From Chloroflexota bacterium (GTDB lineage: Bacteria; Chloroflexota; Anaerolineae; Aggregatilineales; Phototrophicaceae): 35,929 nt of DNA. The translations under genes were made by a program, and so were the position numbers. Where the stretch lies: contig JAPOYS010000074.1 in the NCBI GenBank assembly GCA_026706455.1, positions 1 to 35,929 of the forward strand. Reading direction: 5' to 3'. Under the pieces are notes generated by a model. The model saw only the letters and a list, made by a program, of their open reading frames with translations, had not been told where the DNA came from and did no database searches. Below, in pieces: positions 20,564-24,604 of the stretch. The stretch's first letter is position 1. Each line of letters opens with the position of its first letter.

Positions 20564-20598
20564 GGCGCGCTCGCAAGGGCTGAAAGTCGAGGCATGTG

Positions 20599-21885
20599 AT
20601 GGCGATACGGTACATAAAGCGCGGCAAGACGATTGAACAGAAAGCCGATGCTGACGCCCAGGTGCAGGCGACGGTGCGCGGCATCCTGGCCGACATCGCG
20701 GCGCGCAAAGACGAGGCGGTGCGAGAACTATCGGTCAAGTTCGACCACTGGGATCCGCCCAGCTTCCGGCTGAGCGCTGACGAGATTCAGCAGGTCATCG
20801 GGACGCTGCCCGAACAGGCGATCACGGACATCCAGTTCGCGCAGGAACAGGTGCGCAATTTCGCCCTGGCGCAGCGGGCGGCGCTGCAAGACATCGAGGT
20901 GGAAACGCTGCCCGGCGTCGTCTTGGGGCACAAGAACATCCCCGTGAATCGCGTCGGCTGCTACGTGCCCGGCGGGCGCTACCCCATGGTGGCGTCGGCG
21001 CACATGAGCGTGGTTACGGCTAAGGCGGCTGGCGTCAAGGAAATCATCGCCTGTACGCCGCCGATCAAGGGTGAACTGCCGGCCGCCACCATCGCCGCCA
21101 TCCACTTCGGAGGCGCCGACGAGATCTACATCCTGGGCGGCGTGCAAGCGCTGGCCTCGATGGCTTATGGCGTCTTGGGCATGGAGCCGGTCGATATGCT
21201 CGTGGGACCGGGCAACGCATACGTCGCCGAAGCCAAGCGGCAACTCTTCGGTTTGGTGGGCATTGACCTGCTGGCGGGACCAACCGAAGTGCTGATCGTC
21301 GCCGATGACAGCGCCGACGCTGAAATGTGCGCCGTTGACCTGCTGGGGCAGGCTGAGCACGGTCCGACTTCGCCGGCTGTGCTGCTAACGACGAGCCAGG
21401 CGCTCGCCGAGAGCATCGAAGCCGAGATCGGCCGTCAACTGGAGCGCCTGCCGACGGCCGATTTGGCCGGCGTCGCCTGGCGCGATTATGGCGAGGTCAT
21501 CCTGGTTGATTCGGACGACGAGATGGCGCAGGTCGCCGATGAGATCGCCAGCGAGCACGTCCAGATTCTGACGCGCGACCCGGACTATTTTCTGGAGAAC
21601 ATGAGCAATTACGGCGCGCTCTTCCTCGGTCCGGAAACGAATGTCGCTTATGGCGACAAGATTATCGGCACCAATCACACGCTGCCGACGAAGAAAGCCG
21701 GTCGCTACACCGGCGGCTTGTGGGTGGGCAAGTTCATCAAGACGGTCACCTACCAGCGCGTGACCGAAGCAGCGAGCGTCGTCATCGGCGAGTACGGCAG
21801 CCGCCTCTGCGACCTCGAAGGTTTCATGGGGCACAAGGAACAGTGCGATCTGCGCCTGCGGCGGTATGGGGGTGGGGTCACGTAG
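20599..21885 (+). CDS. Histidinol-dehydrogenase-family protein, HpsN-like
   Basis: A 428-aa NAD-dependent alcohol/aldehyde dehydrogenase of the HisD family. Conserved are [50 protein letters not shown] and TNHTLPT. Several stretches resemble HpsN (sulfopropanediol 3-dehydrogenase) rather than biosynthetic HisD, as I recall them: [28 protein letters not shown] and [14 protein letters not shown]. No other his gene is nearby. It likely oxidises a small polyol or sulfonated alcohol twice to an acid. ATG 20599 follows GAGG; GTG 20596 is one codon earlier. The last 72 bp before the final codons (21801-21872) are repeated exactly at 22826-22897. Confidence 0.87.
21801..21872. repeat. 72-bp direct repeat, copy 1 (3' end of the HisD-like gene)
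   Basis: Identical at all 72 positions to 22826-22897, offset 1025 bp, starting CCGCCTCTGCGACC and ending GGTATGGGGG. Flanks differ at once on both sides (CAG versus TTA before, TGG versus GCT after). It encodes the HisD C-terminus from [11 protein letters not shown] on. It lies 51 bp from the stop of the first DUF5615 gene. Confidence 0.95.
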
Positions 21886-21923
21886 TGGCGTCTGTGACGT
21901 ACTTCCGTATCTGCAACCGCCGT

Positions 21924-22328
21924 TTAGTGTAGGCGACTAACGTATTCCACATGATTTCGCGCTTCGTCGGCAGTGAATACCCTAGCCATTAGTTCGAGAT
22001 ATCTAACAACGACGCCGATTTCGCTATGCTCGCTGGGGATGAATACGATTCCCGCGTGCTGTGCCCCTTCCGCTGCGAGATCGACGTAGTCGCTGTCCAT
22101 CGTGCAGAGCACGCGCCCAAGTTCAGTAGCCATTTGCAATTGAATTGGGTCGTCCTCGCCTTGAGTTTCAAGCGCTTGCACGGTGATCGTGTCAATGCCG
22201 AGTTGATTGAGCTGCCGAGCGATCTCTACGTCCAAATGCTCGTCGAGATAAAATCGAAGCGAATCCTCACTTAATGGTCTCTTCCACGTGCTCGGTAATG
22301 TCTGCTTTACTGCCAATTTCCGAGGCAT
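21924..22328 (-). CDS. DUF5615 PIN-like protein, cassette A
   Basis: A 134-aa protein of the DUF5615 (PIN-like, Mut7-C related) family. It is presumed to be the nuclease/toxin half of pairs with DUF433. The core LRFYLDEHLD carries the first acidic residues, followed by LGIDTITV, DDPIQLQMA, VLCTMDSDYVDLA (second acidic cluster) and HAGIVFIPS. It is complete compared with cassette B, ending ARNHVEYVSRLH. The start is uncertain: ATG 22328 overlaps the DUF433 gene by 62 bp, TTG 22316 by 50 bp, and the domain itself begins about 20 codons after the ATG. Coupled translation with DUF433 is likely. Toxicity is an inference. Confidence 0.75.
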   Translation of the reverse strand: MPRKLAVKQTLPSTWKRPLSEDSLRFYLDEHLDVEIARQLNQLGIDTITVQALETQGEDDPIQLQMATELGRVLCTMDSDYVDLAAEGAQHAGIVFIPSEHSEIGVVVRYLELMARVFTADEARNHVEYVSRLH

Positions 22329-22737
22329 CCATCTTCGTAAAGAGCGATTTGATAAGCTCCGGACGGTCGTCGTTTGAGGCCTCAGTCGCCTCTGATACTG
22401 CCAAACGAAAATCGTCGTCCTGCATGTAACGCTGCAAGCGTGAATATAGTGAGTTCTTGTCAGCAAGCACTTTTTCAGCGATCGCTTGGCTCTTGCGTTC
22501 GCTTTCGCGCATGTCGGCATCAATCTCGGCTTGATTGCAGTAATAGTAGGCGAGCGCCGCGTGAACCTGTGCGAGCGTAATCTGGAATGCTTCCGCCATC
22601 TGCTCTGGGTTGCGCCCGTTCCAGCGCATCGCGCTCACAAGATCCATCACGCGCAATCCGGTGCCGACGATGCAGGGTCGCCCACCCCGAATATTCGGAT
22701 TGCGATAGATAAGGTCAATGCTCTCAATCTTGTTCAT
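22267..22737 (-). CDS. DUF433 antitoxin-like protein, cassette A
   Basis: A 156-aa protein. Residues 1-75 are a DUF433 domain (IESIDLIYRNPNIRGGRPCIVGTG, then AFQITLAQVHAALAYYY), a helix-turn-helix fold found with DUF5615 partners and considered antitoxin-like. The C-terminal ~80 residues are helical and charged, longer than in many DUF433 proteins, and share almost nothing with cassette B. Start ATG 22737 follows AGGAG 7 bases upstream. The first 90 bp of the gene are nearly identical in DNA to cassette B. An extended -10 promoter lies about 45 bp upstream. Confidence 0.82.
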   Translation of the reverse strand: MNKIESIDLIYRNPNIRGGRPCIVGTGLRVMDLVSAMRWNGRNPEQMAEAFQITLAQVHAALAYYYCNQAEIDADMRESERKSQAIAEKVLADKNSLYSRLQRYMQDDDFRLAVSEATEASNDDRPELIKSLFTKMDASEIGSKADITEHVEETIK

Positions 22738-22739
22738 GG
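22646..22739. repeat. 94-bp near-identical block, copy A (start of DUF433)
   Basis: 90 of 94 bases match 23613-23706. The four differences are near 22681, 22717, 22727 and 22730. The block covers the first ~30 codons of DUF433. Outside it the two genes diverge sharply, so the pair is mosaic. Confidence 0.85.
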
Positions 22740-22781
22740 TCTGCTCCTGCAAAACTGCCTTGCGCCGCGACTGGCAATTGC

Positions 22782-22790
22782 ATTCTACCA
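22782..22790 (-). promoter_or_regulatory. Extended -10 promoter of cassette A
   Basis: The minus strand reads TGGTAGAAT, 44 bases before the DUF433 start. It matches the TGGTATAAT of clpC1 and the TGGTACAAC of cassette B. No good -35 is seen. Confidence 0.45.
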
Positions 22791-22825
22791 AGGAAGAAGC
22801 GGCGCAGTTAGCCCAAGACTGCTTA

Positions 22826-22897
22826 CCGCCTCTGCGACCTCGAAGGTTTCATGGGGCACAAGGAACAGTGCGATCTGCGCCTGCGGCGGTATGGGGG
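22826..22897. repeat. 72-bp direct repeat, copy 2 (orphan end of the HisD-like gene)
   Basis: An exact copy of 21801-21872 placed between the two DUF433-DUF5615 cassettes, with no remaining HisD reading frame before it. It still encodes [20 protein letters not shown] in one frame. Perfect identity implies a recent event. Confidence 0.95.
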
Positions 22898-22917
22898 GCT
22901 GCTCAAGCCGCCGCAGG
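22880..22917. repeat. Inverted repeat at the outer edge of the orphan HisD end
   Basis: CCTGCGGCGG (22880-22889) and CCGCCGCAGG (22908-22917) form a perfect 10-bp stem with an 18-base loop. The left arm lies inside the 72-bp repeat and the right arm outside, so copy 1 cannot form it. It could act as a terminator for cassette B, which ends at 22954 on the minus strand, or mark a recombination end. No T-run follows. Confidence 0.5.
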
Positions 22918-22953
22918 GACGGTGTCAGTCAGGGATAGTCGGGTAAAGATACT

Positions 22954-23289
22954 CTAGACGATTCTCCATATCGGCGGGCGAGTAAATCCGCTTGAATTCA
23001 ATAAAGTGCGCAGCAAGACTCCGTAGTCTCGATACACGCCGGGAATGAAAACAATACCGGCGTGACTTATGCCTTGGCTGGCCATGCGGATGTAGTCTTT
23101 GTCGTAGGTGCATAGGACGCGGCCGGAAGCCCTGGCAAAATCAAGCTGATTCGGATCGCTCTGCCCGAGCCGTTTCAGAGCCGGCGTCGTGACCGTGTCT
23201 ATTCCTAGTTTGTTCAACCGTTTAGCGACTGCGACTGGCATATTTTCGTCGAAGAAAAGGCGGATGTCGTTCTCAACCAATTTCGTCAT
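22954..23289 (-). pseudogene. DUF5615 PIN-like protein, cassette B, C-terminal frameshift
   Basis: A 111-aa product with an intact core: IRLFFDENMPVAVAKRL, LGIDTVTT, SDPNQLDFA, VLCTYDKDYIRMA and HAGIVFIPG. After GVLLRTLL the frame runs into unrelated NSSGFTRPPIWRIV and stops. In the next frame the expected ending appears (IEFKRIYSPADMENRLEYLYP, stop at 22925), matching RVFTADEARNHVEYV of cassette A. One missing base in the TTTATTGAA stretch (about 22999-23005) explains this. The catalytic core survives, so the product may still be active or may be inactive. Start ATG 23289 overlaps DUF433-B by 17 bp, so translation is coupled. Confidence 0.75.
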
Positions 23290-23704
23290 CCATTATGGCC
23301 AGGACTCGCTTTTCGAAATCGGCGCCTACGCCCGAGATAGCCTTTTGGCAGGCGCGCTGGAGCGAGGCCCGATATTTGCGAAGAGAATTGTCAAATGAGG
23401 ACCGCAACAGCCTGGATTTCTCTGGTCGGCCCCAGCCTTCCTTTGCCAACTCCAGCCCAATCCGAATATCCTCGCGAATGTCGGCGTCGATTTCAGCTTT
23501 ACTCTCGTAGTAATAGGCCAGGGCGGCATGCACTTGCGACAAGGAAATGTCGTAATCCTGAGCCAGTTGGTCGGGCTTTCTATCCGCGAAGTCCATCGCC
23601 ATAACAATGTCGATCACGCGCAATCCGGTGCCGACGATGCAGGGTCGCCCGCCCCGAATATTCGGATTGCGATAGATAAGGTCGATGCTCTCTATCGTGT
23701 TCAT
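23273..23704 (-). CDS. DUF433 antitoxin-like protein, cassette B
   Basis: A 143-aa DUF433 protein. The first ~30 residues are nearly the same as cassette A (MNTIESIDLIYRNPNIRGG), and the domain continues with DYDISLSQVHAALAYYY. The C-terminal ~70 residues (RPEKSRLLRSSF, ADFEKRVLAIMDDEIG) are charged, helical and unrelated to those of cassette A, so each may be matched to its own partner. Start ATG 23704 follows AGGAG. The RDD gene on the same strand ends 57 bp upstream. Confidence 0.82.
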   Translation of the reverse strand: MNTIESIDLIYRNPNIRGGRPCIVGTGLRVIDIVMAMDFADRKPDQLAQDYDISLSQVHAALAYYYESKAEIDADIREDIRIGLELAKEGWGRPEKSRLLRSSFDNSLRKYRASLQRACQKAISGVGADFEKRVLAIMDDEIG

Positions 23705-23706
23705 GG
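23613..23706. repeat. 94-bp near-identical block, copy B (start of DUF433)
   Basis: Partner of 22646-22739 with four mismatches in 94 bases. It forms the 5' anchor of cassette B, as the 72-bp repeat forms its 3' anchor. Confidence 0.85.
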
Positions 23707-23734
23707 CCGGCTCCTGGCTAAACTCTGTGCAAGA

Positions 23735-23743
23735 GTTGTACCA
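23735..23743 (-). promoter_or_regulatory. Extended -10-like element of cassette B
   Basis: The minus strand reads TGGTACAAC, 30 bases before ATG 23704. The -10 matches TATAAT at four of six positions and the TG is in place. This is weaker than at cassette A. Confidence 0.35.
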
Positions 23744-23761
23744 GAACATAAGCCCACGAGG

Positions 23762-24544
23762 TCAAGCCGAGACCGCCCGCCGCTCCTCCACCACGACCGT
23801 GCCCGCCATCTTGTCGTGCCATGCCTGCTTCTCACGATCAAATAGCGCCCAGAGGTAACCCAGCAGGAAGATCTGCGAAACGGTGTAACCGAAGACGTTG
23901 CGCAGCAGCGCGTCCAATATCTTGATGCGGCCGCCGCGTCTCTTGACTACGCGCAGGCGCAGCATCATCTTGCCCAGCGTCTGCCCATTGAAGCTTACCA
24001 TCAGCACAACATTGTAAACGGCGCTGACGATCAGATTGACCGTGATGGTAGTGGATTGGAATTGCGAGAAGGCGGCCGACACTGCCGCGCCATCCCCGCT
24101 GGCCATGGCGGCATCCAGCGGCGCCAGCGCCCCGCCCGCAATCAGCAGCAGCACTGTGGCGATGCCCACGATGAAGCCGTCAATGATGATCGCCAGCCAG
24201 CGCTTGCCGATGGACGCCAGCCGCATATTGGGCGCCGCTATTTCGTCTGCTTCACTTGCTTTGGCTTTGCCCGCTTCATCCGCTTCAGCAGCGACCGAGC
24301 GATTCACCTTTTCCATTGGCGCGAAGCCCGCCAACTCATCGACGGCGGCTTGATATCCGAGGTCAATCTCCAGCGCCTTCCGCAAGTAGGCGACGCGGTC
24401 GCCTTCGGTTCGCGCTGCTTGCGCCGCCAGGTAATAGGCGTCCGCGCTGGGGTTCTCCTTTAGCTCTTCCTTCACCAGCGCGCGCGCCTCGTCCCGGCGG
24501 AAATCATCAAGCGCCCGCTGGATGGTCGCCAATCTGTCGGTCAT
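23762..24544 (-). CDS. RDD-family membrane protein with helical N-terminal domain
   Basis: A 260-aa protein. Residues 1-80 are helical and TPR-like (IQRALDDFRRDEARALVKEEL, AAQAARTEGDRVAYLRKALEID). A charged linker leads to an RDD domain with three hydrophobic segments (LAIIIDGFIVGIATVLLLIAGG, TVNLIVSAVYNVVLMVSF and a C-terminal segment). The family signature residues are seen as GKRWLAIIIDG and NGQTLGKMMLRLRVVK. RDD proteins are membrane proteins of poorly known function, some linked to ion transport. I chose ATG 24544; TTG 24580 would add 12 residues. It ends just upstream of cassette B. Confidence 0.85.
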   Translation of the reverse strand: MTDRLATIQRALDDFRRDEARALVKEELKENPSADAYYLAAQAARTEGDRVAYLRKALEIDLGYQAAVDELAGFAPMEKVNRSVAAEADEAGKAKASEADEIAAPNMRLASIGKRWLAIIIDGFIVGIATVLLLIAGGALAPLDAAMASGDGAAVSAAFSQFQSTTITVNLIVSAVYNVVLMVSFNGQTLGKMMLRLRVVKRRGGRIKILDALLRNVFGYTVSQIFLLGYLWALFDREKQAWHDKMAGTVVVEERRAVSA

Positions 24545-24604
24545 GCGCCTGTACCGCCTTTCAAATGGGTCTTTCCGCAATGATACTTTATTTTGCCAGG
24601 CTTG

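Follow-up and report, generated by a model that had tools for sequence, protein, structure and literature searches.

A repeated gene end inside a toxin-antitoxin array

How does the end of a metabolic gene come to lie, base for base, within an array of toxin-antitoxin genes? The question is raised by contig C15, the 35,929-base stretch analysed here as a whole and called the window, of G000, a Chloroflexota draft genome of 3.86 Mb in 189 contigs that is 90.85% complete. Between a hisD-like gene and a convergent gene for an RDD-family membrane protein, the window carries two tandem cassettes, each a putative pair of a DUF5615 toxin gene toward hisD and a DUF433 antitoxin gene toward RDD, both on the minus strand (Table 1). 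The best reading of the comparisons below, in which we place high confidence, is that the slot holding such a pair is occasionally duplicated and that its core is then exchanged by homologous recombination, between hisD ends and between the 5' regions of DUF433 genes.

The hisD end and its internal copy agree at 72/72 nucleotides (nt) and form the longest exact direct repeat in the window; with both copies removed, the longest has 38 nt and lies within the DUF433 genes. The second anchor, at the 5' end of the antitoxin genes, is identical at 90/94 positions within a wider repeat of 123 nt at 90% (22627-22749 and 23594-23716). The original prediction had described both repeats and cores far less alike than these anchors, and repeat comparison bore this out: across the genus, toxins of the types found in the two cassettes (A and B) share 38-52% protein identity. 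Across codons 1-31 the two antitoxin genes show mismatches at 5/93 bases, each in a separate codon, and three of these changes are synonymous. Because roughly one base in four differs between types within the first 60-90 bases of DUF433 across the genus, the two antitoxin anchors of the window were probably made alike recently. A collapsed assembly is an unlikely source of the repeat, since 72 nt is below the usual short-read length and 10 further draft genomes hold similar arrays whose repeats are not identical.

A variable slot between two genes

A DNA query over hisD and RDD matched 34/34 genomes of the genus, G000 included; the downstream region was taken from the other 33 and its genes were mapped. 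The interval between the two genes holds zero to three pairs or other cargo. In total, 31 DUF433 cassettes, all facing one way, occur in 18/34 genomes (one in eight genomes, two in seven, three in three). Nine genomes have an empty junction with a gap of -3 to 129 bp: the hisD and RDD stops overlap in G001, G003, G018, G021 and G029, and the gaps are 7, 7, 41 and 129 bp in G006, G010, G015 and G009, respectively. Six others (G008, G012, G013, G022, G023 and G030) hold only other cargo or remnants, and three other cargo proteins that were scanned gave no Pfam match over the cut-off. The RDD gene was not found beside hisD in G002. Relatives do not share one fixed pair of cassettes; as had been anticipated for a swapping hotspot, zero, one, two or different DUF433-DUF5615 cores, and also three, lie between the same anchors. 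The arrays of G007 and G011 are broken across contigs, and the two contigs of each were treated as neighbours. A break at or within the array, as at the contig ends G007:C22 and G011:C51, would be expected if the sampled strains differ there. In G027, G028 and G031 (L041, L065 and L063) an RDD 3'-end fragment is duplicated beside the cassette, in G028 on top of a hisD-end copy, and in G027 and G028 a small open reading frame resembling one in G008 precedes this fragment.

Delivery of the whole array by a phage or plasmid, with the hisD pieces as scars of repeated transfer, would accord with the description of toxin-antitoxin pairs as mobile modules in the sections of PMC2701414 on which we draw. 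However, the array matches none of 72,556 plasmid records (a search that did not include phage records or viral contigs), and the empty junction is seamless in the five genomes with overlapping stops, which makes this origin extremely improbable.

Copies of the hisD end

Internal copies of the hisD end were found 13 times in 10 genomes by blastn and once more, in G011, by tblastn; chance matches of 17 and 23 nt in G003 and G009 were left out of the count. Their number equals that of DUF433 cassettes minus one in 10/10 genomes with two or three cassettes (the array of G011 being split over contigs). A second hisD end was seen in one of the eight single-cassette genomes, G005, where some 740 bp with no recognised pair come after it (the contig of G007 breaks at this point), and no internal copy was found by blastn in the 15 genomes with an empty junction or other cargo only. 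This arithmetic is predicted by slot duplication and not by insertion into the gene end. The starting point of 12/13 internal copies lies 74-87 nt ahead of the native stop. A stop codon or decay is seen in some internal copies (G028, G020). In G016 and G019, inspection by eye shows bases peculiar to each genome in both the native hisD end and the first copy of it, a sign of gene conversion.

Cassette insertion at the gene end had been one of the two processes originally put forward. Circular cassettes would enter the 3' end of hisD through an unseen recombinase and regenerate the gene end each time, as islands do at tRNA genes and integron cassettes at attI. The uniform orientation of all 31 cassettes and the narrow range of copy starts are what such a process would produce, and the length of an attC site is near that of the 72-nt repeat. 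But each insertion should leave a second hisD end, which 7/8 single-cassette genomes lack, and on this ground insertion into the hisD end was rejected as the source of the copies. Furthermore, the only tyrosine-integrase match (PF00589) of G000 lies on contig C143 and none on C15 or on C98, the contig of a second array (serine recombinases and transposases were not searched for). That second array uses the start of an unrelated gene, and a crossover detected in G016 falls within DUF433 and not at the hisD end (both described below). Entry by site-specific insertion is thus very unlikely.

Mainly slot-bound linkers and type-bound cores

Toxin types were assigned by inspection and then checked by identity. 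Five of the 31 slots have no toxin frame above 80 amino acids (both slots of G011, slot 2 of G017, slot 1 of G020 and slot 2 of G024) and were left out of toxin counts and trees, which use the remaining 26; in the last three of these slots the toxins are lost or broken. Segments of DUF433 were compared over 29/31 rows and the hisD repeat over 28, the row of G027 being kept although the search pattern misplaced its repeat. Six toxin types were distinguished, with identities of 60-100% within and 34-55% between types (66-73% for A versus A'). Their order differs, being A-B in G000, B-A in G032, M-A-B in G014, E-A'-M in G019 and E-M-A' in G020, and varies between close and distant relatives alike.

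The nearest neighbours of each cassette in other genomes indicate where exchange may take place. For full linkers, the nearest neighbour occupies the same kind of slot (internal or terminal) in 31/31 cases, partly owing to linker length as discussed below (shuffle mean 15.2, highest 29 in 5000), and carries the same type in 6/31 (shuffle mean 4.5). Along DUF433, the fraction of nearest neighbours of the same type rises from 0.20 in the first 60 nt to 0.91-0.97 in segments from nt 240 on, and it reaches 0.96-1.00 in the toxin (25-26 rows; one segment with five rows, at 0.60, was excluded). On the hisD side it is 0.20 in the repeat and 0.85 in the next 50 nt (28 rows). Since this type signal starts directly past the repeat, the cassette tends to include the final codons of hisD and its stop, and those of the window (21873-21885) appear to belong to its first cassette. 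The idea that the array regenerates the end of hisD holds in this limited sense, namely that the first cassette tends to bring the final few codons and the stop. Outside the anchors the sequence goes mainly with slot position, inside them with toxin type.

Trees of the 26 slots agree with this pattern. The core tree requires five changes of type and nine of kind, whereas the tree of the linker plus 60 nt of DUF433 requires 13 and four, respectively. One branch of the latter tree (support 99) unites nine internal rows of eight genomes whose hisD clades are distant, so this junction either is old or has itself spread. Elsewhere in the tree, the three rows of G014 cluster (98), and the slot-1 row of G000 clusters with terminal rows of G007 and G025 (85). 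The outer linker ends of slot 1 in G000 and G014 match the RDD end of G025 at 11/15 and 13/15 positions. Several such groups, together with the RDD-like end in slot 1 of G000, suggest that more than one duplication made the junctions. At the slot 2 junction of G014, 12 nt differ by eye at one place from the genome's own RDD end. A remnant of the RDD 3' end at every internal junction was considered and rejected, as the common, G016-type junction matches at 8/12 positions at best and the median across RDD ends is not above chance.

A chimeric antitoxin and movement between lineages

Over 3.1 kb at this locus, G016, with two cassettes, agrees at 93% with G019, which has three. In slot 2 of G016, the linker and the first ~77-80 antitoxin codons closely match those of slot 3 in G019, whereas the 3' half of the antitoxin and the toxin closely match those of slot 2 in G019; the changeover lies near GAGGACAT, at about codons 77-80. 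The simplest reading of this chimera is the deletion of one cassette by recombination between tandem DUF433 genes, although the reverse direction is possible too.

Some cores have also moved between lineages. The E toxin of G028 is identical to those of G016 and G019 at 0.96 and 0.94 of all bases and at 0.91 and 0.88 of third positions, compared with 0.79 of all bases and 0.54 of third positions for hisD. For the M toxins of G014 and G026, and of G017, G019 and G020 among each other, third-position identity is 0.87-0.91 versus 0.63-0.66 for hisD; the third-position values of hisD are approximate, being taken by column from a gapped alignment. In approximately unbiased (AU) tests with groups picked after the toxins had been seen, the hisD data reject a single clade for the E carriers (p-AU 8e-07) and likewise one for G014 plus G026 (p-AU 4e-07). 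A hisD clade of G017, G019 and G020 is rejected as well, but this result carries no information, since the constraint splits G019 from its sister G016, which holds the 5' half of an M-type antitoxin. Unequal recombination, the other process originally proposed, is supported by this movement, by the chimera, and by linkers that go with the slot while cores go with the type.

The same data bear on plain tandem duplication followed by divergence, with the anchors kept alike by selection on the N-terminal DNA-binding part of the antitoxin and on the hisD end. The N-terminus of DUF433 is indeed conserved in all types, and slots have been duplicated in the favoured reading as well. However, internal hisD copies lack the rest of the gene and some of them are decayed, and yet the copy of G000 is perfect. 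Within a type, toxins resemble each other across genomes far more than they resemble toxins of other types, and the chimera and the cross-lineage cores require recombination. Divergence after duplication is therefore highly improbable as the whole explanation.

A second locus with the same plan

Contig C98 of G000 carries three further pairs in tandem; their toxins have diverged, while their 5' ends agree at 83-98% over 180 nt. This locus varies within the genus, and it was compared in detail in 20 of the 33 other genomes and G000. Among 24 internal junctions, 11, spread over 7/13 genomes with at least two pairs, repeat the beginning of the gene located after the toxins; at the second-locus junctions of the other six, G000 among them, no neighbour-gene copy was found. 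Seven of the 11 copies have 51-77 nt at 88-99% identity and the other four, three of them in G012, are shorter or weaker; one false match in G005 was left out. As with hisD, the flanking piece lies on the toxin side, and its end points vary by genome. Because a second, unrelated locus has the same plan, hisD is not special, the handle being supplied by the gene that lies beyond the toxin. A tentative extension, which we consider possible but rather doubtful, is that such pieces of ~50-80 nt are working handles of an active exchange of toxin specificities, each made up of the antitoxin tail and the toxin, while the promoter and the DNA-binding half of the antitoxin stay in place. If true, two unrelated loci with similar handle lengths at several junctions would represent a general route for the evolution of toxin-antitoxin arrays that encode no recombinase of their own.

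Elsewhere in G000, an open frame with two consecutive DUF433 domains lies beside a DUF5615 gene (G000:C93:13199-13756). Outside the genus, no tight DUF433 tandems were noticed by eye among the matches listed for one query (E 1e-6; 64 of 81 genomes), and the nearest DUF433 neighbours among them are about 1.6 and 2.2 kb apart.

Proposed mechanism

The favoured reading, duplication with core exchange, would start from a variable toxin-antitoxin slot between two convergent genes. The whole slot, with the last ~70-85 nt of hisD, would be duplicated into tandem slots; genome comparison shows the outcome, whereas the joining event is deduced. Every array would then hold two kinds of repeat, one from the 3' end of hisD and one from the 5' part of DUF433, and homologous recombination between them, within the chromosome or with DNA of relatives, could delete, add, reorder or replace a core. 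The exchanged core would run from the C-terminal half of the antitoxin through the toxin paired with it to the final few codons and the stop of hisD, so that toxin and antitoxin tail move as one while the slot tends to keep its promoter region and the antitoxin's N-terminal part. Recombination would presumably be of the RecA type, and G000 encodes a ComEC-type protein (PF03772); we infer that RecA does the exchange and that incoming DNA brings the foreign cores.

Several observations weigh against this reading. All comparisons rest on draft genomes, and RecA of G000 is a partial match at a contig edge. Internal linkers are longer than terminal ones (mostly 70 versus 58 nt); trimmed to 56 nt, linkers find the same kind of slot in 25/31 cases (shuffle highest 27) and the same type in 11/31 (reached by 44/5000 shuffles), and trimmed to 40 nt in 26 and 12, respectively. 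Since trimming lowers the one and lifts the other, linker length makes part of the 31/31, and a type signal lingers near the antitoxin. Inside DUF433 the slot signal is weak, with 0.66 of the same kind even in the first 60 nt. Only for some internal copies does no other native hisD match better than the one in the same genome; the copy of G032 fits another genome far better (0.91 versus 0.77), and hisD conversion within one genome is not universal. Finally, at third positions only 18/53 pairs of one type are more alike than hisD by over 0.1, and 13/53 are less alike; vertical descent and loss would suffice for many of these pairs and may explain much of the distribution.

If exchange proceeds as proposed, it would provide a traceable route by which toxin-antitoxin repertoires diversify, in which recombination and not dedicated mobility genes swaps a specificity module at fixed addresses. 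As a by-product, the last codons of a metabolic gene would be rewritten. Antitoxin specificity is predicted to reside past about codon 80 of DUF433, and array turnover could be counted in these probable sponge symbionts.

Genes of the window

Both antitoxins (DUF433, 50.0 and 48.7 bits) and both toxins (DUF5615, 55.5 and 51.6 bits) exceed the Pfam cut-off, while Mut7-C and PIN_10 matches to the toxins stay under it. Antitoxin and toxin frames overlap on the same strand, and the pairs would fit type II toxin-antitoxin systems of the DUF433/PIN kind, with DUF433 (COG2442) beside an overlapping PIN-like gene. The frame of the type B toxin departs from other B toxins past about residue 94, and this toxin may be inactive. 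None of four proteins (0/4) matches any catalogued model of anti-phage defence in PADLOC-DB, and a PDB sequence search with one DUF433 protein and one toxin gave no match.

Table 1. Coordinates of the hisD-RDD interval and its neighbours in the window; toxin and antitoxin assignments are predictions
Feature	Position	Strand	Basis or remark
hisD-like gene	20596..21885	+	PF00815; TIGR00069; left neighbour of the array
Native copy of 72-nt hisD 3' anchor	21801..21872	+	Repeat comparison
Type A toxin, DUF5615 (PIN/Mut7-C-like)	21924..22316	-	Pfam; start codon uncertain
Type A antitoxin, DUF433	22267..22737	-	Pfam
DUF433 5' anchor of cassette A	22646..22739	-	90/94 nt identical to cassette B
Internal linker	22738..22825	.	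Outer end (about 22808-22822) resembles last 15 nt of RDD gene
Internal copy of hisD 3' anchor, without remainder of gene	22826..22897	+	Repeat comparison
Type B toxin, DUF5615	22954..23289	-	Pfam; C-terminal end unlike other B toxins
Type B antitoxin, DUF433	23273..23704	-	Pfam
DUF433 5' anchor of cassette B	23613..23706	-	90/94 nt identical to cassette A
Terminal linker adjoining RDD	23705..23761	.	Linker comparison
RDD-family membrane protein gene	23762..24580	-	Right neighbour; convergent with hisD

HisD of the window, which shares 58-68% identity with proteins from Proteobacteria and Bacilli, is closer to them than expected of a biosynthetic HisD and may be a related dehydrogenase of another pathway. 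Named records with a HisD at least 75% identical all bear the titles Chloroflexi/Chloroflexota, Anaerolineae or Anaerolineales, and some isolate names among these relatives suggest a marine sponge host. This group of bacteria is uncultured and probably lives in sponges. We take COG4634 to correspond to DUF5615. Functions enriched in sponge symbionts include COG4634 and COG2442 in the portion of PMC5649159 used here.

Comparison with known systems

Integron arrays hold cassettes in one orientation with repeats of tens of bases between them. The arrays described here likewise contain cassettes the same way round, separated by repeats of that length, but the contig has no tyrosine-integrase match and the repeats are gene ends that vary by locus. 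In site-specific islands a single insert duplicates the end of its target, which is the case in one of the eight genomes that carry a single cassette (G007 being broken there).

A literature search, whose coverage left out most subscription journals, found no account of bystander gene ends anchoring toxin-antitoxin arrays, no paper pairing DUF433 with DUF5615, none on toxin-antitoxin arrays with unequal crossing and gene conversion, and none on toxin-antitoxin modules with partial duplication of a flanking gene at a hotspot. Pairs of PIN and COG2442 (DUF433) proteins were described by Makarova et al. (2009; PMC2701414), who in the same sections discuss islands of closely spaced toxin-antitoxin pairs and the transfer of toxin-antitoxin cassettes. 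Like those pairs, the present ones join a DUF433 antitoxin to a PIN-like toxin. Unlike in these sections of that account, the repeats here are ends of a bystander gene and cores would be exchanged between anchors.

Swapping of toxin modules by recombination has been proposed or shown for contact-dependent inhibition (CDI) and Rhs systems in the sections of PMC4927057 cited here. Their orphan toxin-immunity modules resemble the present cassettes in that modules stand in tandem and conserved sequence permits homologous swapping (PMC4927057). Integrase or transposase genes are common at those loci according to these sections, and nothing at the present locus points to delivery of a product into other cells. 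The main difference concerns the shared sequence: in CDI/Rhs it is the toxin gene's own upstream part (PMC4927057), whereas the modules described here carry no upstream toxin gene part but a piece of hisD or of the gene after the toxins, and a fragment of a bystander metabolic gene together with the antitoxin 5' region would serve as anchors.

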